From Bacteroidota bacterium (GTDB lineage: Bacteria > Bacteroidota > Bacteroidia > Chitinophagales > Saprospiraceae): 64,000 nt of DNA. Numbering within the stretch: the first letter of the stretch is position 1; each line of letters begins with the position of its first letter. Position numbers and translations under genes: made by a program. The notes below the pieces were generated by a model that saw nothing but the letters and a program-made list of their open reading frames with translations, was not told the origin of the DNA and did no database searches. Below, piece after piece: positions 3,345-57,916 of the stretch. Location: positions 1-64,000 of the forward strand of contig WGNL01000007.1 in the NCBI GenBank assembly GCA_016124585.1, read 5' to 3'.

Positions 3345-3941
3345 ATGTTTAAAAAATTCAAAAAAATGACCAGTAAAGATAAAACTGCTGAACAGCAGCA
3401 AGATGAAATATTGGAACAATTAGAAAACGGCGCTGAAGAGCAAGCTGATGTTGTAGTAGGTGACCTCGAAAATGGGCAATCTGCTGAAAATCAAGCAGAT
3501 ATTGGCGACCTCCAGCAGCAATTAGACGACATGAAGGACAAGTACATACGAATGGTTGCTGAATTTGACAATTTCAAGAAGCGCTCCATCCGGGAAAAGT
3601 TAGACTTTATGAAGTCGGCAGCACAGGACACCCTGTCAGCCCTTTTGCCAGTTTTAGACGATTTTGACAGGGCTAAAAAATTTGCAGAGGGAAAAGAGAA
3701 AGCTACATGGGATACGGGCGTCGACCTCGTTTATCAAAAACTTTACAATGTCGTTCGTAACAAAGGTTTGGAACCAATGGAATCTACTGGACAAACTTTT
3801 GACCCAGATATGCATGAGGCCATTACGGAAATTCCTGCACCAACGGAGGAACTGAAAGGAAAAGTGGTGGACACCATTGAAAAAGGTTACAAGCTCAACG
3901 ATAAAATCATCCGTCACGCCAAGGTGGTGGTCGGAAAATAA
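3345..3941 (+). CDS. grpE: Nucleotide exchange factor GrpE
   Basis: This 198-residue protein has an acidic, Gln-rich N-terminus, a long coiled coil (~65-120) containing the family signature MVAEFDNFKKRS, and the C-terminal beta domain with the typical GYKLNDKIIRHAKVVV ending. GrpE dimers release ADP from DnaK. The ATG at 3345 follows an A/T-rich leader without a clear Shine-Dalgarno. It is followed 100 bp later by dnaJ on the same strand, forming a chaperone operon; dnaK is not in the window. Confidence 0.97.
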   Translation: MFKKFKKMTSKDKTAEQQQDEILEQLENGAEEQADVVVGDLENGQSAENQADIGDLQQQLDDMKDKYIRMVAEFDNFKKRSIREKLDFMKSAAQDTLSALLPVLDDFDRAKKFAEGKEKATWDTGVDLVYQKLYNVVRNKGLEPMESTGQTFDPDMHEAITEIPAPTEELKGKVVDTIEKGYKLNDKIIRHAKVVVGK

Positions 3942-20583: not shown

Positions 20584-20610
20584 AGCCCAGAAAACGAAAG
20601 ACATTATTCA

Positions 20611-20668
20611 TATTCGTGGAATTTTATCATTGCTAGTGAGTCGCACCGTTTGTGCGACTTCTTTTTTT
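20611..20668 (+). other. Possible degenerate first unit of the repeat array with terminator
   Basis: TTCGTGGAATTTTATCATTGCTAG (from 20613) loosely resembles the array motif found further on. It is followed at once by a perfect hairpin GTCGCAC/GTGCGAC (20640-20646 with 20652-20658) and a T-run. The terminator is clear; the kinship to the array is weak. Confidence 0.5.
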
Positions 20669-20952
20669 CTCCTAGTCTCATCTTTTTTCCCACCTTTTTT
20701 GAGATTTCCCTTTTCTAAAATTAAGTTTTTTTTCACAAAATCGAACAAACAATGCTGGTGTTCTTGTTGTATTTATTTGATAAACAAAGGCTTAATCAAA
20801 AAGCATCAAAACAATTTAGTATTAAAAAAATATTACAACCCTAAAATTTTGTCTTTGGCTTAGGCGTTTCACTGCTGCATATTTGTATCGTGAAAGATGG
20901 ATAACGAGGAGAGCGGCTAAAGTTCCCGCAAAAAGAAGTGGGAACCACAAAA
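20669..20952. other. Gene-free A/T-rich stretch
   Basis: I see no coding frame here. Near its end, GTTCCC (20922-20927) pairs with GGGAAC (20940-20945) in a short hairpin that precedes the first array unit. Otherwise it is A/T-rich sequence without recognisable elements. Confidence 0.5.
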
Positions 20953-20958
20953 TTTGAA

Positions 20959-20988
20959 TATGTTCATGGGATTATAATTTGTTAATAG
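20959..20988 (+). repeat. Array unit 1 motif
   Basis: This 30-nt motif begins TATGTTCATGGGATTATAAT and ends TTGTTAATAG; it is identical to the motif at 21100-21129. It contains a five-codon frame ATG TTC ATG GGA TTA TAA. TTTG (20953-20956) lies 18 nt before TAATTTG (20975-20981), so the motif is also promoter-like. A terminator hairpin follows directly. Confidence 0.85.
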
Positions 20989-21022
20989 CAGGCCGTTAGG
21001 TTTTATACGGTCTGCTGTTTTT
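20987..21022 (+). terminator. Array unit 1 hairpin terminator
   Basis: A 10-bp stem AGCAGGCCGT/ACGGTCTGCT (20987-20996 with 21007-21016, one G-U pair) is followed by GTTTTTC. It overlaps the last bases of the motif. Confidence 0.8.
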
Positions 21023-21099
21023 CACCTCAAACGGGAGGTGAGCGGTCGGATAGAAAGGAAAGAAGGGATGACAGGAACTTCCGGCCAAATTGAAAAGAT

Positions 21100-21129
21100 T
21101 ATGTTCATGGGATTATAATTTGTTAATAG
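21100..21129 (+). repeat. Array unit 2 motif
   Basis: A 30-nt exact copy of the motif at 20959-20988, 141 nt further on. Both flanking sequences are unrelated to those of unit 1, so the identity is confined to the motif. Confidence 0.85.
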
Positions 21130-21175
21130 TGGGGCGTCCCAACTTCTGTTTCAGGGGCGTCTCCCTATTTTTTTC
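21127..21175 (+). terminator. Array unit 2 hairpin terminator
   Basis: The arms 21127-21140 and 21154-21167 form a 14-pair stem with one mismatch and a few G-U pairs, followed by seven T residues. The sequence is unrelated to the unit 1 hairpin. Confidence 0.7.
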
Positions 21176-21187
21176 ACAAATTATACC

Positions 21188-21256
21188 TATAAAAAATAGG
21201 CTTCCTTTAGGAAAGCCAATAAAAAAAGGCTGACTTCTTTCAAGTCAGCCCTCAGT
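21188..21256. other. Two consecutive hairpins between array units 2 and 3
   Basis: GGCTTCCT/AGGAAAGCC (~21200-21218) and GGCTGACTT/AAGTCAGCC (21227-21250) form stems separated by an A-run. On the minus strand each stem is followed by T residues, so they may end transcription coming from the right. Confidence 0.55.
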
Positions 21257-21262
21257 TTAGGA

Positions 21263-21292
21263 CATGTTCATGGGACTATAATTTGCAAATAG
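21263..21292 (+). repeat. Array unit 3 motif
   Basis: This copy differs from units 1 and 2 at four of 30 positions. One change turns the fifth codon of the mini-frame from TTA to CTA, both leucine. TTAG stands where TTTG precedes the motif in unit 1. Confidence 0.8.
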
Positions 21293-21307
21293 CAAGTGTT
21301 CTATGAA

Positions 21308-21382
21308 AAGTTGATTAACAACTTTGTGCCGCTAAGGTAAGGGCAGAAATATCACATCACCAAGCCCTGCCCAATTATTTTT
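21308..21382 (+). terminator. Array unit 3 hairpins with terminator-like end
   Basis: A first hairpin AAAGTTG/CAACTTT (21308-21325) is followed by GGGCAG/CTGCCC (21341-21346 with 21367-21372) and AATTATTTTT. Unit 3 therefore has a longer body (~80 nt) than units 1, 2 and 4. Confidence 0.55.
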
Positions 21383-21407
21383 AGAAAAAAGATTATTTGT
21401 TTTGGAT

Positions 21408-21434
21408 ATGTTCATGGGATAATAATGTTAACAG
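21408..21434 (+). repeat. Array unit 4 motif (short form)
   Basis: The motif ATGTTCATGGGATAATAATG is three bases shorter, so the mini-frame reads ATG TTC ATG GGA TAA. TTTG lies just upstream at 21401-21404. Confidence 0.75.
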
Positions 21435-21460
21435 TCGTTCTTCGGAACGACTTTTTTTTT
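21434..21460 (+). terminator. Array unit 4 terminator
   Basis: A classic intrinsic terminator: GTCGTTC/GAACGAC with a TTCG loop (21434-21451), followed by nine T residues. Confidence 0.92.
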
Positions 21461-21608
21461 GCCATTTTGCGAACTATTTGTACATCTTTTTGGTTTATCT
21501 GGCAGTCTCCCAATTAACTGAAAGTATTACTTGGTTTTTAGTTGGTTTTGTTTGTTAGCAAAGGGTGTGGTTTATGCCATACCCTTTTTCTTTTTTCTTT
21601 CCCGGCAG

Positions 21609-42392: not shown

Positions 42393-45300
42393 ATGAAAAT
42401 CATTCTAATTTACCTAACCCGAATGTTAGCTGTATTCATCGCAATTGGATGCTTGCAGACTACACAGATGTTTGCACAGTCAAAAAGCATCAACCTTGGC
42501 TTAGAGGCTGACCCAGCTGATGCTAGTAGCAACTACCAAATTAAAAGCCCCAACTTGGGGAGCTTCAGCCCTAGCCCTACCTTCTCAGAAAAAGGTAAAG
42601 GCAACGAAAAAATGCTTGTCATGGGCTGCGACTTGACAACTTATCAATCTGCGACCCTTATAGGTCCTGGTGATTTTCCTTACACAAGTCCGGGCACAGG
42701 TGTCACCGTAAGTGTCAGCACCGATGTCACAACTATATCAAACACCACCTATTCCTGTGACGGAAATTCTTTCGCATGTTCGAACCCCGCTTGGTGGCTA
42801 AATTCCGCTTCCCAATCCATTGTCCTAACTTTTTCTGCACCAGTTACCGATTTTTCAGTAGTAGTCAACGGTACGAATCAGGATGAATTATTCACTTTCA
42901 CCGCTGCAACTGGAACTATCAGCTTGGACAATTTTTGTACAGCTTCTTTTGCTGTAACTGGAGGTGGAAACCAATTGGTAGATAATGTTTCTACGACAAC
43001 AGGAACTTTGATAACTGTACTTAACCCTACTGGTTCCACCCAGTACACCATCACCCATAATGGAGTTGGGGCAGGCTCGAGGATTACTCTGTTGGATTGT
43101 TTTCAAAACGAGCCAGGCTGCGTCAACCCTTTCGTCAGTTTGCCAGCCAATGGTGCTTCAACTGTTGCCTGCCTAGCATTGGCTACCCAGCCGACCCCAC
43201 CAAATGGCACTGATCAGGATGGCAACTCCGTTAGCCCATCTTCTGGTCCTACTATAACGGATAACCCAAATCCCCTTTCCTGTGAAGGTACAAGAACCTA
43301 CACTTGGACTTATATGGACTGCGAGGGGACTGAATATTTTTGGAGCTACGTCTATACCATCGAGCGCAATCCGTTTACGATTACTACGCCAAACGGCGCT
43401 TCGACAGTATCCTGCCATACGCTAGCCACCCAGCCTACGCCGCCCACGGTGATGAGCGATTGCGGAGAAACATTGACGCCAACAGGCCCGGCCGTTACCG
43501 AAAACCCAGCTCCTTTGTTCTGTAACGGTACACGAACCTACACTTGGACTTACACGGATTGCGCCGGTAACTCTGCCCAATGGAGCTACGTCTATACCAT
43601 CGATAGGAATCCCTTCACGATTACAACGCCAAATGGTGCTTCCACAATTAGTTGTCTGAGTCAAGCTGTCGATCCTGCACCGCCTACTGTATTGAGCGAT
43701 TGTGGAGAAACCTTGAATCCAGCAGGCCCTTTTGTCTTTGACAATCCCAATCCTGCCGTCTGTGAAGGTACCCGTACCTTTACCTATACTTACACTGACT
43801 GTGAAGGCAATACGGCCGATTGGAGCTACGTCTATACCATTGAGCGCAATCCGTTCACGATTACCACGCCAAATGGCGCATCCACAGTTAGCTGCCTGAG
43901 TCAAGCGACAGCGCCGATGCCACCAACCGTGGTGAGTGATTGCGGGGAAACCTTGAACCCAACTGGCCCCTTTTTCTCTGACAACCCCAACCCATTAAGT
44001 TGCGAAGGCACTCGCACCTATACTTATACTTACACGGATTGCGAAGGCAATACAGCCGATTGGAGTTATGTCTATACCATTGAGAGAAACCCATTTACAA
44101 CTCCGGCAAATGGATCGGCAACGGTGAATTGCGTCAGCGAAGCAACGCCACCAACCCTGCCGATGGTGACTAGTGACTGTGGTGAAACACTGGCGCCGAG
44201 CGCCCCGGTCATTACCGACAGTCCCAGCACGATTGATTGCGGCGGCTCAAGAACCTACAGTTACACCTACACGGATTGCGAAGGCAATACTGATACATGG
44301 AGTTTTGTTTATACCATCAGTCCGATTGGTGGTGTAATAAAACCAGCTGATGGTGCTTCGACAGTGCCTTGCGTTTCACAAGCTGTGGAGCCTACACCAC
44401 CGACTGTGACCAACAATTGTGGTGTCGTTTTGGATCCTGATGAAATGATCGTGACAGATGCACCAGACCCCATCACTTGCGAAGGGACTCGCACTTACAC
44501 TTGGAACTATTTCGATTGTGATGAAAATGAGTTTTTCTGGAACTACGTCTATACCATCCAGCGAAACCCGATTTCCTTGCCAGCCGATGGTGCCTCAACG
44601 GTAACCTGCGCAAGTGCTGCCACCACGCCAACTCCTCCAACTGTGATGGGGGATTGTGGTGAAACACTGATGCCAACTGGCCCCATTGTCACCGACGACC
44701 CCAATCCAATAACTTGTAATGGCACAAGAACCTATGCTTATACTTACACGGATTGTACTGGTAATTCTGCCACATGGAATTATGTTTACACTGTTAGCCC
44801 AACGGGCGGGATAACACTCCCACCAGACGGTGAAGAAACGGTAAATTGCGTCAGCGAAATTACCGCACCAATGCCACCTACTGGAATGGGCGATTGTGGT
44901 GAAATGATACCACCAAGCGGCCCAACCATCACTGATGAGCCTAACCCGCTCAGTTGCAGTGGAACCCGCACTTATACCTATACTTATACGGACTGTGCTG
45001 GTGGTACTGCCACATGGAACTATGTTTATACTGTTAATCCAACGGGAGGGTATTCATTGCCGCCGGATGGTGCTTCAACAGTGTCTTGCCCAGCATTGGC
45101 CACCATGCCAACGCCGCCAACCGTGATGGATGTTTGTGGGAATATTGTGGAACATGGGGGTGTAGAGATTACCGAAAACCCAGACCCCGTGACCTGCGAA
45201 GGCACGATTACCTATTCATGGAATTATTCCGATTGTCTGGAAAATATCTCGGTTTGGTCATATACCTACACCATCGAGCGGAATCCATTTACCATCAGCA

Positions 45301-48300
45301 CGCCGAATGGTGCTTCGACAATTGCCTGTCTTGCGCAAGCAATCCAACCAGCGCCGCCTACGGTGATGAGTGATTGCGGTGAAACGTTGACACCGACCGG
45401 TCCGGTCGTTACCGACAGCCCGAACCCAGTTACCTGTGAGGGCACTCGAACCTACACGTACACTTACACAGATTGCGAAGGAAATCAGGCTTCTTGGAGC
45501 TTTGTTTATACCATTGAGCGGAACCCATTCACCATCAGCACGCCAAACGGTGCTTCGACGGTCGCTTGTCCTACATTGGCGACCCAGCCAACGCCACCGA
45601 CGGTGATGAGCGATTGTGGTGAAACGCTGACGCCTTCAGGCCCAGTTGTTACTGAGAATCCAAACCCGCTGATATGTGAAGGCACTCGAACTTATACGTA
45701 CACTTACACGGATTGCGAAGGAAATCAGGCTACTTGGAGCTATGTCTATACCATCGAGCTGCCCCCTTTTACCATCAATACGCCAAACGGTGCTTCAACC
45801 GTTGCTTGCCCAGACCAGGCTACTGAGCCGGCTCCACCCACGGTAATGAGTAATTGCGGTGAACCAATTTACCCGACAGGTCCATTTGTTACGGAAAACC
45901 CATCCCCGCTGTCATGTGAAGGCACTCGAACTTACACGTATGTTTTCACAGATTGTGCCGGGCATCAGGCTTCCTGGGACTTTGTCTACACGATTGAGCG
46001 GAATGATTTCAGTTTGCCTGCTAACGATTCTTCAACTGTTGCTTGCGTTGCACTCGCTGTATATCCAACCTTGCCAACTGTTCAAAGCAATTGTGGGGAA
46101 ACACTGATGCCGACTGATCTGGTCATTGTCGATAATCCGAACCCACTTATTTGCGGAGGTACTCGCACCTATATTTACACTTACACAGACTGTGAAGGCA
46201 ATTCACATGATTGGATGTATAAATACACCATTACGCCATCGACATTTATGGTGCCAGCAGATGGTGCATCCACGGTGTCGTGTCCTTCCATGGTTACAAC
46301 ACCAACGCCCCCAGTCGTGAGCGATGGTTGTGGAAATCCTACCACGCCGACTGGTCCTGTGATCACGATGAACCCTGAGCCACTTTCCTGCGAAGGAACT
46401 GTGACCTACACTTATACCTACGTCGATTGTTCAGGGAATATGGTTCCTTGGAACTATATCTACACCATTGAAAGGAATGATTTCTCGGTGCCACAGAATG
46501 GCAGTGCAACAGTTTCCTGCGTTGCGCAAGCGACAACTCCTACGCCTCCCGCCGTTCAAAGTGATTGTGGTGAAACGCTGACGCCGACTGGCCCTGTCGT
46601 CACGGATAATCCAAACCCGCTGCTCTGTGGCGGTACCCGGACTTACACTTGGACTTACACGGATTGCGAGGGCAATACCCACAATTGGAGCTTTGTTTAC
46701 ACGGTCACGCCAGTGCCGTTTGTTGTACCAGCCAATGGAGCAGCAACAGTGGCTTGCCCAGCTTTGGCCACCCAGCCTACGCCGCCAGTGGTGAATGATG
46801 CTTGTGGCAACCCGACCACGCCAACTGGCCCGGTCATCACCAATAACCCGAACCCGCTGTCTTGCGAAGGCACTCGCACTTACACCTGGACTTATACCGA
46901 TTGTGCTGGAAACATGACGCCTTGGAGCTTTGTCTATACCATTGAGCGTGAGCCATTTACTGTCCCAGCGAATGGTGCTGCCACGGTTGCTTGTCTTGCT
47001 TTGGTGACAACTCCGACGCCGCCAACCGTGATGAGCAACTGCGGGGAAACCTTGCCAACGCCAACTCCAGTCATCACAGACAGCCCGAACCCGCTGACCT
47101 GCGAAGGCACTCGGACGTATGCCTACACCTACACGGATTGCGAAGGAAATCAGGCGACGTGGAGCTACGTGTACACGATTGAGCGGGAGCCATTCACGAT
47201 TTCCACCCCGAACGGTGCGTCCACCGTGGCCTGCCCTGCGCTGGCAGTTGCGCCTACGCCGCCTGTCGTGATGAGCGATTGTGGGGAAACATTGCCAACG
47301 CCAACGCCAGTCATTACCAATATTCCGAACCCACTGACTTGTGAAGGCGCTCGGACTTACGCCTACACTTACACGGATTGCGAAGGAAACACAGCGACTT
47401 GGAGCTACGCTTACACGATTGAGCGGGAGCCATTTACTATTCCGGCGAATGGTGCTGCCACGGTTGCCTGCCCAGCAAATGCGACACAACCCACGCCACC
47501 AACAGTACAGAGCAACTGCGGTGAAGTGTTGACTCCAACTGGCCCGGTCATCACCAACAACCCCAACCCGCTAACATGCGAAGGTACCCGCACTTATGCT
47601 TGGACGTACACCGATTGTGAAGGCAATACGGCCACTTGGAGTTTTGTCTATACCATCGAACGGGAGCCGTTTGCGATTAGCACTCCTAATGGTGCTGCAA
47701 CTGTGGCTTGCCCTAACCAAACGGATGTGCAGCCAACGCCTCCTGTGGTGACGAGCAACTGCGGTGAAGTGCTAACCCCTGTGGTCACTTCTACTGCAAA
47801 ACCGGGCTGTGAAGGCAACCGAAATTGGATTTTCACTTACACGGATTGCGAGGGCAATACGGCGACTTGGGTCTTTATCTACACGGTTGAGTACCAAGAT
47901 TTTAGCATCCCTGCGAGTGAGGTAGTTAGCGTAGGTTGCCCAATAAATGTGGTTCAGCCAGTGCCACCTGCTGTTATCGACAATTGTGGAAAAGAGTTGA
48001 CGGCTATGGGGCCTGTCATTACTACTACAAACAATGCAAGTGGTTGTGAAGGCAGCAGGAAGTATGAGTGGACGTATAAAGATTGCGAAGGGAACAGTCA
48101 TGTTTGGAGCAAAACTTTCAACATCGAGTACGATGGCGACTTCTTTGTTTATCCTGACGGCGAAACGGCAGTCGGTTGTCTTTCTTATGCTGAATTCCCC
48201 CCCGTACCACCAACTGTTTATGGCACTTGCGGGGAGGTTGCCCATGTTTCTGGCCCAACGATTACCGAAAGCGTTGACCCAAGTGGCTGCAGCGGTACCC

Positions 48301-49664
48301 GTAAATTCACTTTCATTTATACAGATTGTGGCGGCCACAGCCATCCGTGGAGCTTTACCTACCATGCCGAAGATACAGAGCCTCCGGTAGGAACCTGCCC
48401 AGATGGATTGGTGGATGTTGTCAATCTAAGCTGCATTGATGATGTACCATGCCCAGATGATTATGATTTCAGTTCTAAAATTAATGAGTTGATTGCCGCT
48501 GGTGGCATTTATGATGTATGCAGTGGTAACAATATCAAAGTTGAACTGGACAGTTGGTCTAGCTTGTGGCAATGCACTGACCTTTTGGGTGATGGGGTTT
48601 ATACATTTGGTCGTACTTTCTATTTCCGGATTGCAGACCAGTGCGGTAATGAAATGCCAAGTCTCTGCAGTGTGACTTATTCTGGCAAATGCCTCCCGCT
48701 ACAAACGTTCACACAAAGCGAATGGGGTAATGAGGGTGATGCTCCTCATGTGCTAACACCCAGTGATACGACTGACCTGCAAACCATTACAGGTTTATTG
48801 AGTGAACTAGGCCCACTCAAAATTGGAGGCAGCCATCGCTCCTTGACCTTGACTGATGCACAGTGTTTGATGAATTTGCTGCCAAGTGCTGGCAATCCAA
48901 CCACACTGAGCAATTGTCATCAAACCAATTGTAGTGGTTGCAACCCAGCTGGTCCTTCGGGCTTAAAAAACAGCATGGCTGCCAACACCATTGCTTTGAT
49001 ACTTAACATGCGCTACAATGTCAAGTACAATGAATTGACGATGACTGAAATCCGGAATCAAAGCCTTGGTTGTATTGATATTGACCAAAACATAAAGACC
49101 TGTACTGATAATGGGGATTGTGAGCTTCAGCTATTTGAGACCAATGGTGTACAACATGTTTTCCCTTACACAATAGGTGGCCTGCTTGACTTGGCAAACC
49201 TGTTTTTGGATGGTGATTTGGCATTGACGCCAGGAGCTAAATTGGTCTATGCAAGTGCAATTAACAGCACTTTGGTTCGGGTAAATGCTTTCTGGCATGA
49301 CGCAGAGGCACAGACTAACTGTCAGCAAGATGCTGGCATGCCATTCACGGCTGACAATGCTGGCGATAAAGCTTTGCCAAACAATCCAGTCCTGGTGGGC
49401 AACCAAACATTCAGCTTGTCGCCGAATCCAGCTAGCAGTGAAGTCAATATTAAACTGACAGGTTTGGTAGATGGAGAGATGGTGACTTTTGAGCTTTTCA
49501 ACCAACTTGGCCAACGGGTTATGCAAATTGAGTTCGGGAAAGTCCAGTTCCTGAATGAGCGAATTGACTTGAGTGGGATAAAAAGCGGACTTTACATCGT
49601 AAGCCTAAAAGCTGGAGCCAATCATTTTGAAGAAAAACTAGTGATAGGTAATGGCAAACATTAG
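42393..49664 (+). CDS. Giant T9SS-exported repeat protein (22 tandem four-Cys repeats)
   Basis: This 2423-residue protein has a signal peptide (MKIILIYLTRMLAVFIAIG, cut near MFAQS) and an N-terminal domain (~30-240). Twenty-two tandem repeats of ~77-80 residues follow (~245-1999), with the shared pattern NGASTVxC, PTPPTVMSDCGETL, CEGTRTYTYTYTDCEGN and WSYVYTIER. Each carries four conserved Cys residues, probably in disulfides. A Cys-rich module (~2000-2340) shared with the next gene precedes a T9SS sorting domain (~2345-2423, LSPNPASSEVNIKL). It should form a long stalk-like surface adhesin or matrix fibre (inference). The ATG at 42393 starts the signal peptide; the frame is open from 42345. 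Confidence 0.9.
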   Translation: MKIILIYLTRMLAVFIAIGCLQTTQMFAQSKSINLGLEADPADASSNYQIKSPNLGSFSPSPTFSEKGKGNEKMLVMGCDLTTYQSATLIGPGDFPYTSPGTGVTVSVSTDVTTISNTTYSCDGNSFACSNPAWWLNSASQSIVLTFSAPVTDFSVVVNGTNQDELFTFTAATGTISLDNFCTASFAVTGGGNQLVDNVSTTTGTLITVLNPTGSTQYTITHNGVGAGSRITLLDCFQNEPGCVNPFVSLPANGASTVACLALATQPTPPNGTDQDGNSVSPSSGPTITDNPNPLSCEGTRTYTWTYMDCEGTEYFWSYVYTIERNPFTITTPNGASTVSCHTLATQPTPPTVMSDCGETLTPTGPAVTENPAPLFCNGTRTYTWTYTDCAGNSAQWSYVYTIDRNPFTITTPNGASTISCLSQAVDPAPPTVLSDCGETLNPAGPFVFDNPNPAVCEGTRTFTYTYTDCEGNTADWSYVYTIERNPFTITTPNGASTVSCLSQATAPMPPTVVSDCGETLNPTGPFFSDNPNPLSCEGTRTYTYTYTDCEGNTADWSYVYTIERNPFTTPANGSATVNCVSEATPPTLPMVTSDCGETLAPSAPVITDSPSTIDCGGSRTYSYTYTDCEGNTDTWSFVYTISPIGGVIKPADGASTVPCVSQAVEPTPPTVTNNCGVVLDPDEMIVTDAPDPITCEGTRTYTWNYFDCDENEFFWNYVYTIQRNPISLPADGASTVTCASAATTPTPPTVMGDCGETLMPTGPIVTDDPNPITCNGTRTYAYTYTDCTGNSATWNYVYTVSPTGGITLPPDGEETVNCVSEITAPMPPTGMGDCGEMIPPSGPTITDEPNPLSCSGTRTYTYTYTDCAGGTATWNYVYTVNPTGGYSLPPDGASTVSCPALATMPTPPTVMDVCGNIVEHGGVEITENPDPVTCEGTITYSWNYSDCLENISVWSYTYTIERNPFTISTPNGASTIACLAQAIQPAPPTVMSDCGETLTPTGPVVTDSPNPVTCEGTRTYTYTYTDCEGNQASWSFVYTIERNPFTISTPNGASTVACPTLATQPTPPTVMSDCGETLTPSGPVVTENPNPLICEGTRTYTYTYTDCEGNQATWSYVYTIELPPFTINTPNGASTVACPDQATEPAPPTVMSNCGEPIYPTGPFVTENPSPLSCEGTRTYTYVFTDCAGHQASWDFVYTIERNDFSLPANDSSTVACVALAVYPTLPTVQSNCGETLMPTDLVIVDNPNPLICGGTRTYIYTYTDCEGNSHDWMYKYTITPSTFMVPADGASTVSCPSMVTTPTPPVVSDGCGNPTTPTGPVITMNPEPLSCEGTVTYTYTYVDCSGNMVPWNYIYTIERNDFSVPQNGSATVSCVAQATTPTPPAVQSDCGETLTPTGPVVTDNPNPLLCGGTRTYTWTYTDCEGNTHNWSFVYTVTPVPFVVPANGAATVACPALATQPTPPVVNDACGNPTTPTGPVITNNPNPLSCEGTRTYTWTYTDCAGNMTPWSFVYTIEREPFTVPANGAATVACLALVTTPTPPTVMSNCGETLPTPTPVITDSPNPLTCEGTRTYAYTYTDCEGNQATWSYVYTIEREPFTISTPNGASTVACPALAVAPTPPVVMSDCGETLPTPTPVITNIPNPLTCEGARTYAYTYTDCEGNTATWSYAYTIEREPFTIPANGAATVACPANATQPTPPTVQSNCGEVLTPTGPVITNNPNPLTCEGTRTYAWTYTDCEGNTATWSFVYTIEREPFAISTPNGAATVACPNQTDVQPTPPVVTSNCGEVLTPVVTSTAKPGCEGNRNWIFTYTDCEGNTATWVFIYTVEYQDFSIPASEVVSVGCPINVVQPVPPAVIDNCGKELTAMGPVITTTNNASGCEGSRKYEWTYKDCEGNSHVWSKTFNIEYDGDFFVYPDGETAVGCLSYAEFPPVPPTVYGTCGEVAHVSGPTITESVDPSGCSGTRKFTFIYTDCGGHSHPWSFTYHAEDTEPPVGTCPDGLVDVVNLSCIDDVPCPDDYDFSSKINELIAAGGIYDVCSGNNIKVELDSWSSLWQCTDLLGDGVYTFGRTFYFRIADQCGNEMPSLCSVTYSGKCLPLQTFTQSEWGNEGDAPHVLTPSDTTDLQTITGLLSELGPLKIGGSHRSLTLTDAQCLMNLLPSAGNPTTLSNCHQTNCSGCNPAGPSGLKNSMAANTIALILNMRYNVKYNELTMTEIRNQSLGCIDIDQNIKTCTDNGDCELQLFETNGVQHVFPYTIGGLLDLANLFLDGDLALTPGAKLVYASAINSTLVRVNAFWHDAEAQTNCQQDAGMPFTADNAGDKALPNNPVLVGNQTFSLSPNPASSEVNIKLTGLVDGEMVTFELFNQLGQRVMQIEFGKVQFLNERIDLSGIKSGLYIVSLKAGANHFEEKLVIGNGKH

Positions 49665-50185
49665 GCAATTATTCTGCCCAAATTATCGGTCAGTTTTATA
49701 TTAATTTAATTTCAATTTTTTGTAAAAAACAGAAGACGGCTACCCCAAATTGGAATTAGCCGTCTTTTGTTTTTACGTAAGTGTATAGCACCCAAATACT
49801 TTGTTAAATCAGTCATCATGCATATGGTAAGACAAAGTTTGATGAAAAAAAATCATTTGTCAGGAACTACCCAAAACTGGATAAAATCCAATTTTTAAAG
49901 AAATGAGTGCTTTGGGTTAGGTGGTTAATTCTGGTTTTATTCCAATCTTTGAGCCCGAAAAGCACTAGAGTGATGCCGAAAACTTGTCCATTTTGACTGC
50001 ACTTGCCCAGAATTTCTACTGAAAATTGCTTCGGCAATTATTGGTTCTATATTCCAAAACTGATTTATGACCCTTGAATTGGGCATTTTACTAATTGCCC
50101 CATGGGTTCATTTACCCTAACAACCACTAATCAAAACTTGATGCCCAGTCATAAACAATCTTCCCAACATAAAACTTTATTTATT
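49665..50185. other. Intergenic region between the two giant genes
   Basis: Apart from the terminator at 49733, this 521-bp region shows no gene. A minor in-frame ATG at 50102 precedes the second giant's signal-peptide start, but I found no consensus promoter. Confidence 0.45.
49733..49772 (+). terminator. Terminator of the first giant gene
   Basis: A 10-bp stem AAGACGGCTA/TAGCCGTCTT (49733-49742 with 49757-49766) is followed by TTGTTTTT. Confidence 0.88.
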
Positions 50186-53100
50186 ATGAATCTAAAAATT
50201 CGTACACAGTTTGTCTTGTGTGCAATGCTTTTGCTATTCTTGAGTACAGAGGATTTTGCACAAATTTCTATCACAAGTCCTGCGTTCTCAGTTACAGAAG
50301 ATTTTAGTACCCTAGCCTCTTCGGGCACTTCATCTACGGTGCCTACAGGCTGGGCATTCCTAGAAACGGGTACAAATGCGAATACAATTTACACTGCCGG
50401 TACCGGTAGTAGCAATGCTGGTGATACATACAGTTTCGGCTTATCGGGCGACTCTGAGCGTGCCTTTGGAGGCTTGCAGAGTGGTTCCTTGACCCCAACA
50501 ATTGGTGTTTCCTTCACCAATAATTCGGGAAACACCATCAATAGTTTTGATATTACCTACACTGGTGAGACATGGAGAGTAGGAGGGAGCAACCGTTCTG
50601 ATGGAATCCAATTTCAGTACAGTACCAATGCTACCTCATTGAATACAGGTACTTGGACATCAGTAGCGGCCTTGGATTACTTCAACCCTGGCTTTCCTAC
50701 TTCGCCACAGTCCGGTTCCATGATACATTCAGCACTGATTTCTTCAACAATTTCAGGCTTGAGCATTGCGAACGGTACCACTTTCTGGCTTAGGTGGATA
50801 AGTGTAGATGTAAGTGGTTCGGATGACGGTCTCGCAGTGGATGATTTTACCCTCTCGAATATTGTGGTTCCTGGCCCATGCTCCAGTATTACGACGCTTA
50901 CCTGCGATGTACCTGTCACTGCAAGCCTTTCTGGCTCCGGCTCTTGGAATGTAAATGCGTGTGGGTTCTCTACACCTGGTTCAGAAATGGTTTACAGTTT
51001 TACCCCAACCAATACTGGGTTGCACAGCCTACAAGTAAATTCTGCCAGTGGAGATTATATAGACTATTTTTACAAAGCCGCTGCCGATGGGTGTTCCTCT
51101 ACCGGATGGACCTGCATTGCCGATAATATCGGCACTGGGTCAGTCATATTTGGTTCATTGACTGCTGGGGTAGAGTACTATATTTTGCTGGATGCTGAAA
51201 CTACGGCCGCTTCCACTCAAAATTTCCAGATTAATTGCGCAGCCATTTCACCTCCTGCCAATGACCACTGTGAAGATGCCATTACGCTTCCTGCTGCTAC
51301 AGCTACCTACTGCGGAACTACGATTGGTGCAGATGCTGATACGCCTAACGGTGGTGCTAACTGTGGTACGAGTGCAGATGCAGATGGCTCAGGAGTTTGG
51401 TATACCTTCCAAGGTGATGGCCAGGCTTGGGACTTTTTCTTCCCACAAATTGGGGAAGATTGGGATCCAGAAGTGAATGTATATTCGGGCTCCTGCGGCA
51501 ATTATACCTGTGTGACAGGGGACGATGATAGTGGTGGCGGCTTGAGCGCCCAATTTACGGTGAACACGGTTTCTGGCACTACCTACTTCGTTTATGTGCA
51601 CCCTGCATGTGGCGAGGAAGGCTGTGGCGTTTCAGATTTTTGCTTTGATGTAAGCGTACCTACCACGCCTGTAGTGCTGACCTGCCCAACCAACCAAACT
51701 GAATCTGCATGCCTTTCGCAGGATACTATCAATGCACATTTTGCCCTGTGGTTGGCTACGGCTTCAGGCACTGGTGGCTGCAATGGCGTTTTGACTAACA
51801 ACAATACTGGTGCGCCTTCTGCATGTGGTGGTTTCACTACAGTAACTTTCACTTACACAAGTGAGTGTGCTCCTACCACAACAACTTGTCAAGCTACTTT
51901 CACAGTAACTGCTCCACCTTCGGTTGTTCTGACTTGCCCTGTCAATACAACAGTAGCCTCTTGTCAAACCCAGGCAGGAGTGGATGCCCAATTTGCGGCA
52001 TGGCTTGCTACCGCTTCCGGCAGTGGTGGTTGCAATGGTGTTTTGTTGAACAACAGCACGGGCGCTCCTTCTGCCTGTGGTGGCTCCACAACAGTTACCT
52101 TCACCTACACTAGTTCCTGTGCTCCAACCACAACTACTTGCCAAGCTACTTTCACAGTAACTGCCCCATCTTCGGTTGTTTTAACTTGCCCTGTAAACAC
52201 TACAGTTGCCGCATGCCAAACACAAGCTGACGTGGATGCGGCATTTACAGCTTGGCTTGCTACCGCTTCTGGCAGTGGTGGTTGCGATGGTGTTTTGTCA
52301 AATAATAATATAGGTGCACCCTCGGCAGGTGGTGGTTCTACTACGGTGACTTTCACCTACACGAGCAGTTGTGCACCAATGACGACAACCTGCCAAGCGA
52401 CTTTTACCGTTACGGGAGCACCTCCAGTAGTTTTGACTTGCCCTACAAACACCACTACGGCTGCTTGCCAGACACAGGCCGATGTAGATACGCAGTTTGC
52501 TGCTTGGTTGGCAACTGCCTCTGGCAGTGGCGGTTGTAACGGTGTTTTGTCAAACAACAACATAGGTGCACCTGCTGCGTGCGGTGGTTCTACTACGGTG
52601 ACTTTTACCTACACAAGCTCTGTTGATCCAATGACAACGACTTGTCAAGCAACGTTCACCGTGGCAGCAAGCACGACACCTACTGTCAATTGCCCAGTGG
52701 CTACCACTGTCAGTGCATGTTTGACTCAGGCTCAGTTGGATGCTGCGTATGCAGCTTGGCTGGCCTCGGCCTCAGTATCAGACGGCTGTGGTGGCGGCAC
52801 AATTACCAACAATGCCCCAGCAGCACCTGCGATCTGCAACCCAAATGCAAATACCATCACGGTAACTTTCACTTATTCTGGTGGCGCTTGCCAAACAGTA
52901 CCTGTGACCTGTACTTCTACTTTCACAGTACCAGCTTATTCAGATTTCACAGTACCAGCCAATGGTGCTTCCCAAGTGGCTTGTCCATCACAAATTACCC
53001 AACCTACACCGCCAGCGGTGTTGGATGCCTGTGGCAAAACGTTGACGCCGACAGGTCCTGTTGTTGTGAACAACCCGAATCCAATCGCTTGTGAAGGAAC

Positions 53101-57392: not shown

Positions 57393-57824
57393 TTAACCCC
57401 TGATAACTTTGCGATTACCATCAGAGAATTGAATAAGCCGGGCTTTTTCTGCCTTGGGCTTAACTACATTTTTCACAAAATCAAGCGCAGCATCCTTGGA
57501 GTTAAAATTCGCCACGATGAGGTAGGAATAGCCACCTTCAGGGAGTTTTTCATACACAACATTTCCAAATTGCCGGAATAGTGGATTCGTTTTGTCCATC
57601 GGATAAGTCGATGTAGCAATTTCAATGGCATAGCCGTCGAAAAGCGCAGGAAGACGCTTGTGTGGACGAACTGAAACGGGAGCAGGAGCCGTTTTTTTGA
57701 CGGGGCTGCTGATGGATGCAAGTGTACTTTCTGGTTCGAAAGCCGTACCACCTTGACAAAAGACAGTGGTACAAAAAACCATCGCCAGAAATAAACAAAT
57801 TATGCGGGAGGCAATCTTTTTCAT
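57393..57824 (-). CDS. Secreted SPOR-like domain protein
   Basis: The 143-residue protein has a signal peptide (MKKIASRIICLFLAMVFCTTVFCQ), a Pro/Ser-rich linker (~30-58) and one SPOR-like domain (~62-142) with GYAIEIATSTYPM, GNVVYEKLPEGGYSYLIVANFNSKDAALDFV and ARLIQF. SPOR domains bind peptidoglycan with denuded glycan strands, often at division sites. This is a minimal exported version without other domains. Confidence 0.75.
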   Translation of the reverse strand: MKKIASRIICLFLAMVFCTTVFCQGGTAFEPESTLASISSPVKKTAPAPVSVRPHKRLPALFDGYAIEIATSTYPMDKTNPLFRQFGNVVYEKLPEGGYSYLIVANFNSKDAALDFVKNVVKPKAEKARLIQFSDGNRKVIRG

Positions 57825-57916
57825 GGAATTATAAATTTAATAATAATTAAATATGTAAAAATCATGCCAAGTTTTACCGATTGAAAATCAGTCTTAAGTG
57901 GCATTAACTTTACACT

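Follow-up and report, generated by a model that had tools for sequence, protein, structure and literature searches.

In Bacteroides, the family of paralogous sRNAs named FopS is described as comprising 14 RNAs, each having a terminator in addition to a single-stranded 5' seed (GTGTTTTTCATAG...), which repress translation of SusC by binding near the start codon of susC mRNAs (PMC11697453). According to the same account, RbpB counters FopS and binds its seed region, and copies of FopS were noted in one phage (PMC11697453). Rfp18 of Flavobacterium psychrophilum, another sRNA of this phylum, is reported to affect secreted proteases (PMC9723704). A literature search, with most subscription papers outside its scope, returned no paper on such RNAs in the Saprospiraceae.

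Here we describe a tandem repeat array in a window of 64,000 nt, the start of contig C24 of a Saprospiraceae genome of 6.63 Mb in 45 contigs. On balance we favour the reading that this locus encodes one noncoding RNA made of four linker-hairpin sRNA modules, which would pair with mRNAs of secreted and surface proteins at their start regions. An earlier note on this DNA had placed four motif copies 141-163 nt apart, and both the positions and the spacings (141, 163 and 144 nt) are correct (Table 1); the 19-mer ATGTTCATGGGATTATAAT, allowing up to three mismatches, has exactly four matches in the window, where shuffles average 0.01 and none reached four. Copies 1 and 2 are indeed identical over 30 nt, and TAATTTG lies 18 nt after TTTG in unit 1 and after TTTA in unit 3, as had been noted. 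The claim that each copy has its own hairpin and T-run stands in part: by eye, a hairpin directly follows copies 1, 2 and 4, with T-runs of 5, 7 and 9 nt, whereas copy 3 is followed only later by a small and then a larger hairpin, and a strong T-run usually belongs to the last hairpin of an array only.

Table 1. Coordinates of the array, its parts and two related features of the window.
Feature	Position	Strand	Basis
Related unit with another linker (ATTCGTGGAATTTTATCATTGCTAG), hairpin and T-run	20600-20669	+	similar units at other loci
Predicted promoter, TTTG...TATTTGTA (TTG-N25-TTGTA)	20854-20887	+	upstream-element counts; predicted transcription start ~20890
Predicted single noncoding transcript, units 1-4	20890-21460	+	a single promoter-like element, a single strong terminator
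Hairpin A, before unit 1	20922-20945	+	predicted fold
Unit 1 linker	20953-20988	+	sequence, repeat and mismatch search
Unit 1 hairpin, T-run of 5	20987-21022	+	predicted fold and sequence
Unit 2 linker	21097-21129	+	sequence, repeat and mismatch search
Unit 2 hairpin, T-run of 7	21125-21174	+	sequence; fold of orthologous unit L078
Unit 3 linker, ACTATAAT variant	21257-21292	+	sequence, repeat and mismatch search
Unit 3 downstream hairpins	~21308-21326 and ~21341-21372	+	by eye
Unit 4 linker, ATAATAAT variant	21401-21433	+	sequence, repeat and mismatch search
Last hairpin and 9-nt T-run, predicted array terminator	21434-21460	+	covariation, T-run
Predicted target: start region (AAATTTATAATTCC-ATG) and 143-aa secreted-protein gene (57396-57824)	57396-57838	-	11/14 upstream positions complementary

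The only plus-strand open reading frame of at least 50 aa that overlaps 20890-21460 is a 53-aa frame with a TTG start (21397-21558), and none of that size lies wholly inside this interval. At gathering thresholds, Rfam found one 5S rRNA and two tRNAs in the whole window and nothing else; up to E = 5, the array region gave five weak matches, all under their gathering scores. Variable stems occupy the position of hairpin A in other arrays. The related unit upstream of the array, perhaps a separate sRNA, has similar counterparts at the matching place in several relatives. Similar units were seen at L036, L038, L040, L041, L074 and L078, and, from other genera, at L043, L052, L058, L066, L097 and L140. 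Between units 2 and 3 of both arrays of this genome (21199-21251; L009 ~3770-3800) there are hairpins with minus-strand T-runs, as if a transcript of the opposite strand terminated there. Elsewhere in the window, four stretches of tandem repeats of ~240-252 nt (43341-52659) probably encode repeated domains of large surface proteins.

The module consists of an invariant linker (GGATATGTTCATGGGATTATAATTTGTTAG) and a covarying hairpin. The core itself was used to select copies, and host copies were gathered from fetched loci; beyond it the flanking sequence is TTTTGGATATG-core-TTTGTTAG. Compared with mononucleotide shuffles, 201 of the 230 host copies with an exact core, 44 of the 75 with one mismatch and 41 of the 73 with two are followed by a stem that exceeds the 99th percentile. 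The stems vary between units yet remain paired: among 23 last units, hand-chosen from different arrays and aligned, 93.2% of cells pair, and two-sided changes occur in 25 cells against 7.0 in shuffles, with none of 500 shuffles reaching 25. Sliding the partner abolishes this covariation signal. The predicted accessibility of the linker is hardly higher than that of the control (0.47 against 0.45). The array is a real, conserved, structured RNA locus with a well-supported anatomy, and the earlier suggestion of small RNAs gains support from structure, covariation and conservation.

Searching this genome and its relatives with the motif at up to two mismatches, as the earlier note had proposed, revealed a second array and copies throughout the family. 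Within this genome there are seven motif copies at this threshold; the second array, on C14, resembles the first in layout and has four units, the third of them degenerate, while C28 bears one lone copy directly after a phage-like gene. Among 60 genomes, this one included, at least 37 carry the 19-mer with up to two mismatches: all 14 of the genus, at least 21 of the 23 sampled from other genera of the family, often in tandem, and at least 2 of the 23 from other families of the order. The reversed 19-mer, used as a control, gave one match each in at least 3 of the 60. The order-level matches among those listed are single and imperfect, and those of G055 fall in transposase-like frames; some two-mismatch matches within the family (L015, L027, L028) do not resemble units. 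We also scanned one genome for each of 84,980 species with TTCATGGGATTATAATTTG, which matched at least 119 stretches. Among the 80 listed, most titles read Saprospiraceae or Saprospirales and the remainder Lewinellaceae, Chitinophagales or just Bacteroidetes/Bacteroidia, the genera named being Phaeodactylibacter, Flavilitoribacter and Algoriphagus; Phaeodactylibacter luteus and Flavilitoribacter nigricans are carriers in culture. The Algoriphagus match (L096) has no evident hairpin and was taken as a chance match. In different genomes (L010, L061, L081), single motif units also come after a conserved gene for a small membrane protein of phage- or tailocin-like type.

In sequence, the linker is the antisense of a Bacteroidota start region (AAATTATAATCYC-ATG-AA), and its reverse complement, CAAATTATAATCCC-ATG-AAC, itself resembles one. 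Start regions of 856 genes of this genome show a peak of A at -13 to -11 and an enrichment of C at -1; Flavobacterium johnsoniae is described as using A-3, A-6, A-12 and A-13, with Shine-Dalgarno sequences rare (PMC8710568). No 16S gene was found in the assembly. Scored under the start-region profile, the complement of the linker falls in the top 1.5% of its own permutations. With the ATG aligned, 4 of 865 genes match at 11 or more of the 14 upstream positions, where permutations average 0.25; two of these four strict genes, C5 and C19, had first been met via a motif search, and without them the count is 2 of 863 (p = 0.036). In an independent set of 583 genes, one reaches 11 of 14 (p = 0.15) and 14 reach at least 9 of 14 against 5.5 expected (p = 0.028); once G-U pairs are allowed, its count at 11 or more is no higher than expected (4 against 4.45). 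Among 558 genes of public contigs, fetched because they bear the motif, 11 reach at least 9 of 14 against 4.7 (p = 0.036). A third set (131 genes) was excluded, its loci having been retrieved by way of the motif. When two sets from this genome are pooled, with the ascertained C5 and C19 genes included, 32, 10 and 5 genes reach 9, 10 and 11 or more matches in the exact register; at 14 other offsets, the corresponding counts range over 7-24, 1-7 and 0-2. Compared with shuffles in which the anti-AUG core is preserved, duplex energies show no genome-wide excess other than at or below -24 kcal/mol (2 against 0.38). Ten of the 15 best duplexes, C5 and C19 among them, involve signal-peptide genes as called by a simple ad hoc rule, against 5.2 expected, and 1 of 100 shuffles was as high. 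Genome-wide target enrichment is weak. In 150 genomes of the family, AATTATAATCNNATGAAA has 43 matches against 8 for one permuted pattern; the 30 loci read were mostly single-copy units on the opposite strand, and 8 lay at the start of a long frame. Separately, two genes for secreted proteins (MKKTNF...), at L329 and L332, have start regions with ~26 nt of complementarity to single-copy units like L337.

Three of the four strict candidates, all of them signal-peptide proteins, were compared with the best-matching orthologue in each genome of the genus: a lipoprotein with a CCP_MauG domain (C5), a secreted protein of 2054 aa (C19) and a lipoprotein with a PAP2 domain (C14). At 70% identity or more, 12 of the 13 relatives have ATAATC no more than 12 nt from the ATG (C5 6/6, C19 2/2, C14 4/5), although the sequence further upstream has changed. 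Below 60% identity, the block is strictly kept in just 1 of 18 relatives (C19 in G007), which counts against targeting. Two of these 18, G003 and G004, have lost the aligned ATG but retain AAATTGTAATCTCA. Over 13 pairs picked for aligned starts and an identity of 45-93%, positions -14 to -1 agree at 10.6 of 14, compared with 7.9 for 30 control pairs, and farther upstream the figures are 9.1 and 8.8 of 20; the control set is small, at 15 genes, and some of its frames are doubtful. For the predicted target within the window, 10 relatives were found, two of them without a listed frame. Among the eight shown, three keep ATAATTCC-ATG, as does this genome, three others have GTAAACCC-ATGAAC, one has GTAATACC-ATGAACAT and one has an ambiguous start. 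This target provides weaker evidence, since the region farther upstream is also conserved in the closest relatives. Together, a few locally conserved sites and weak statistics hint at targeting.

Under the reading that we favour, an RNA of ~570 nt (~20890-21460) would be made from one promoter and end at one strong terminator, and would act either whole or after being cut into units. Each linker, antisense to the start region from the A-rich -13 to -11 through the AUG and codon 2, would pair with mRNAs for signal-peptide proteins and lipoproteins and block ribosome binding without Hfq, with multiple linker copies per transcript raising the dose. We infer the transcription and processing of the array RNA, its pairing in the cell, the repression and its physiological role. 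An invariant linker present in several copies per RNA, with variable hairpins between, could also suit a sponge in which the linkers bind an RNA-binding protein, for instance an RRM protein, and the array titrates it, much as CsrB titrates CsrA. The binding of RbpB to the FopS seed region, as described (PMC11697453), would fit such a role. Yet this explanation, which we hold to be unlikely, accounts neither for the in-register fit of the linker complement to start codons nor for the conserved blocks in close orthologues, and a single regular expression for an RRM-type motif found none in frames of 60-180 aa across 2.06 of the 6.63 Mb.

Copies of the module in phages bear on a further alternative. 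The exact 16-nt core occurs in 33 viral stretches, 11 of which (12 instances) show by eye a linker and then a hairpin; an automatic stem test passed 9 of the 29 distinct viral sequences with the exact core. A viral scan with a CATGAG core returned 12 stretches, none with an evident unit on reading. The frame before the unit matched PHROG head and tail structural families in L214 and L228, and the other five of the seven such phage frames scanned had no PHROG match. From the motif alone, we infer that the unit-bearing viral contigs may infect Saprospiraceae. The core starts 6-25 nt past the stop codon of a phage frame in 8 of the 12 instances (L214 and L223 being near-identical), and a phage-like gene also precedes the host copies L010 and L061, as would be expected of an element that stabilises or processes mRNA 3' ends, with the arrays as decoys or stacked copies. 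Such an element would however be expected at far more genes than the seven copies of this genome allow, and most host copies stand in arrays with their own promoter and no open reading frame, making a general 3'-end function a decidedly poor candidate.

We examined the 190 nt upstream of the first unit at 39 loci, and found TTG-N20..25-TTG[TA]A at 33 of them; the six without it count against the reading that we favour, as does unit 3 of the window for its want of a close hairpin. The relaxed element precedes 33 of 35 loci against 3.05 in shuffles, in a test that left out L051 and L057 (two copies each) and L064 and L079 (one each), none of which has the element. Its spacer is exactly 25 in 27 of the promoter-like elements, and it lies 43-107 nt ahead of the motif. 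In 34 arrays (L051 and L057 excluded), the strict N25 form precedes 25 of 34 first units and 0 of 61 later units (5 of 950 shuffles), and the longest T-run after the motif reaches 7 nt or more in 29 of the 34 last units against 3 of the 61 others. Unit 2 of the window has a T-run of 7, and some termination there is possible. Given a promoter before the first unit and a strong last T-run, each array is read as one noncoding RNA with 2-5 linker-hairpin modules.

These counts argue against independent small-RNA genes, as the units had been described, and against a promoter series in which one regulator or sigma factor would fire a short transcript from each motif into its hairpin. That idea drew on TTTG and TATAATTTG, which are like Bacteroidota promoter boxes, and the 18-nt spacing given earlier is correct. 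However, the genome prefers another spacing: upstream of its genes, TTG-N19/20-TAnnTTTG, equivalent to TTG-N24/25-TTG, is commonest (23 and 20 against 9-17 for other spacers), whereas the motif itself reads TTG-N22-TTG, 22 nt against 25 in the array promoter. The motif would lie 43-107 nt inside the predicted transcript, a better promoter stands upstream of unit 1 with none upstream of later units, degenerate copies retain TTCATGGGAT with the -7 box lost, and phage copies come after stop codons. We consider a promoter series very improbable. An array of mini-ORFs (ATG TTC ATG GGA TTA TAA), a frame present in units 1-3 with a synonymous change in unit 3 and one codon shorter in unit 4, is scarcely credible, as third positions are no less invariant, the commonest core change (GGA to AGA) is non-synonymous, stops differ between copies and some phage copies have no first ATG. 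The earlier proposal of recombination sites was rejected because the orientation relative to the hairpin is constant.

If the locus is indeed an RNA directed at start regions, then start-codon-directed sRNA control would extend from Bacteroides to an environmental family in which no Hfq was found, and the array would supply a concrete seed, predicted targets and a link to phages. Its tandem layout in a single transcript would be a natural dose series, and the complementary blocks upstream of orthologues would offer ready tests of pairing in bacteria that do not rely on Shine-Dalgarno sequences. The array RNA may also help to explain how Bacteroidota phages influence host surface proteins, for which the phage-derived IpeX, described as acting on a porin, is a precedent (PMC12197685). 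More speculatively, and with rather less confidence, near-invariant linkers antisense to the ribosome landing zone of mRNAs without a Shine-Dalgarno sequence might govern the translation of surface and secreted proteins across the Bacteroidota. The Saprospiraceae would then have multiplied the linker within single transcripts (2-5 doses, often in two arrays per genome), and phages would carry the module at the 3' ends of structural-gene mRNAs, remodelling the host surface during infection.

Several described systems share parts of this organisation. LhrC of Listeria is a multicopy sRNA with a hairpin, a single-stranded stretch and a terminator that inhibits translation of the mRNA of a surface protein; as described, it differs in presenting CU-rich sites in loops as well as the stretch to the Shine-Dalgarno sequence, and in having its own promoter for each copy (PMC4132741). 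The csRNAs of Streptococcus are closely similar copies in which an unpaired stretch, flanked by two stem-loops, is complementary to the start region and contains CAU in 53 of 61 (PMC3091779). Unlike the linkers, the csRNAs are described as pairing with a Shine-Dalgarno sequence and depending on CiaR, and that source does not describe them as one transcript (PMC3091779). CcsR1-4 of Rhodobacter sphaeroides are reported as four homologous sRNAs of one precursor with a 3' terminator (PMC8625941, PMC10253847), an arrangement that is predicted here; on the same accounts, they are transcribed together with ccaF1, which encodes a small protein, and RNase E cuts them (PMC8625941, PMC10253847), whereas 20890-21460 wholly contains no plus-strand frame of at least 50 aa that could be a CcsR-type DUF1127 gene.

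The nearest parallel is with FopS (RF04319) and GibS (RF04182), and it qualifies the earlier statement that no described family fits: FopS sRNAs work alike (PMC11697453), and the part that holds is that their Rfam model has no match. RF04319 gave none in the array region of the window up to E = 5, nor in L009, L043, L055, L337, L338, L209 and L228 up to E = 1; as positive controls, L484 and L481 exceeded the gathering score and L485 reached 51.4 of 56. As described, FopS members are separate genes with the seed at the 5' end of the transcript, in contrast to the 2-5 modules per transcript behind a leader seen here, and the seed differs after UUCAU. Membership of FopS therefore fails, on the unmatched Rfam model and the different gene organisation. 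Alignment with the FopS seed is borderline, with p of 0.02-0.05 for a single-copy unit and 0.13-0.34 for the array consensus, and common descent is possible on sequence grounds. The FopS seed occurs exactly in 23 viral stretches (L475-L497) and lies 7-8 nt past a stop codon in four of them, three of which share one sequence, a parallel to the phage units described above. Like the array, FopS and GibS are multicopy and carry a conserved seed with UUCAU followed by a hairpin (PMC11697453, PMC7366714). The last units show both a conserved seed and a terminator hairpin, and the linker is weakly predicted to be single-stranded. Binding near the start codon of mRNAs without a Shine-Dalgarno sequence is reported there and tentatively predicted here from a few sites, and the two also have in common a lack of Hfq, which was not found in any of the 14 genus genomes; the predicted FopS targets are, moreover, described as enriched in outer-membrane proteins. 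The most likely identity of the locus is that of a tandem precursor which resembles FopS and would act on start codons.
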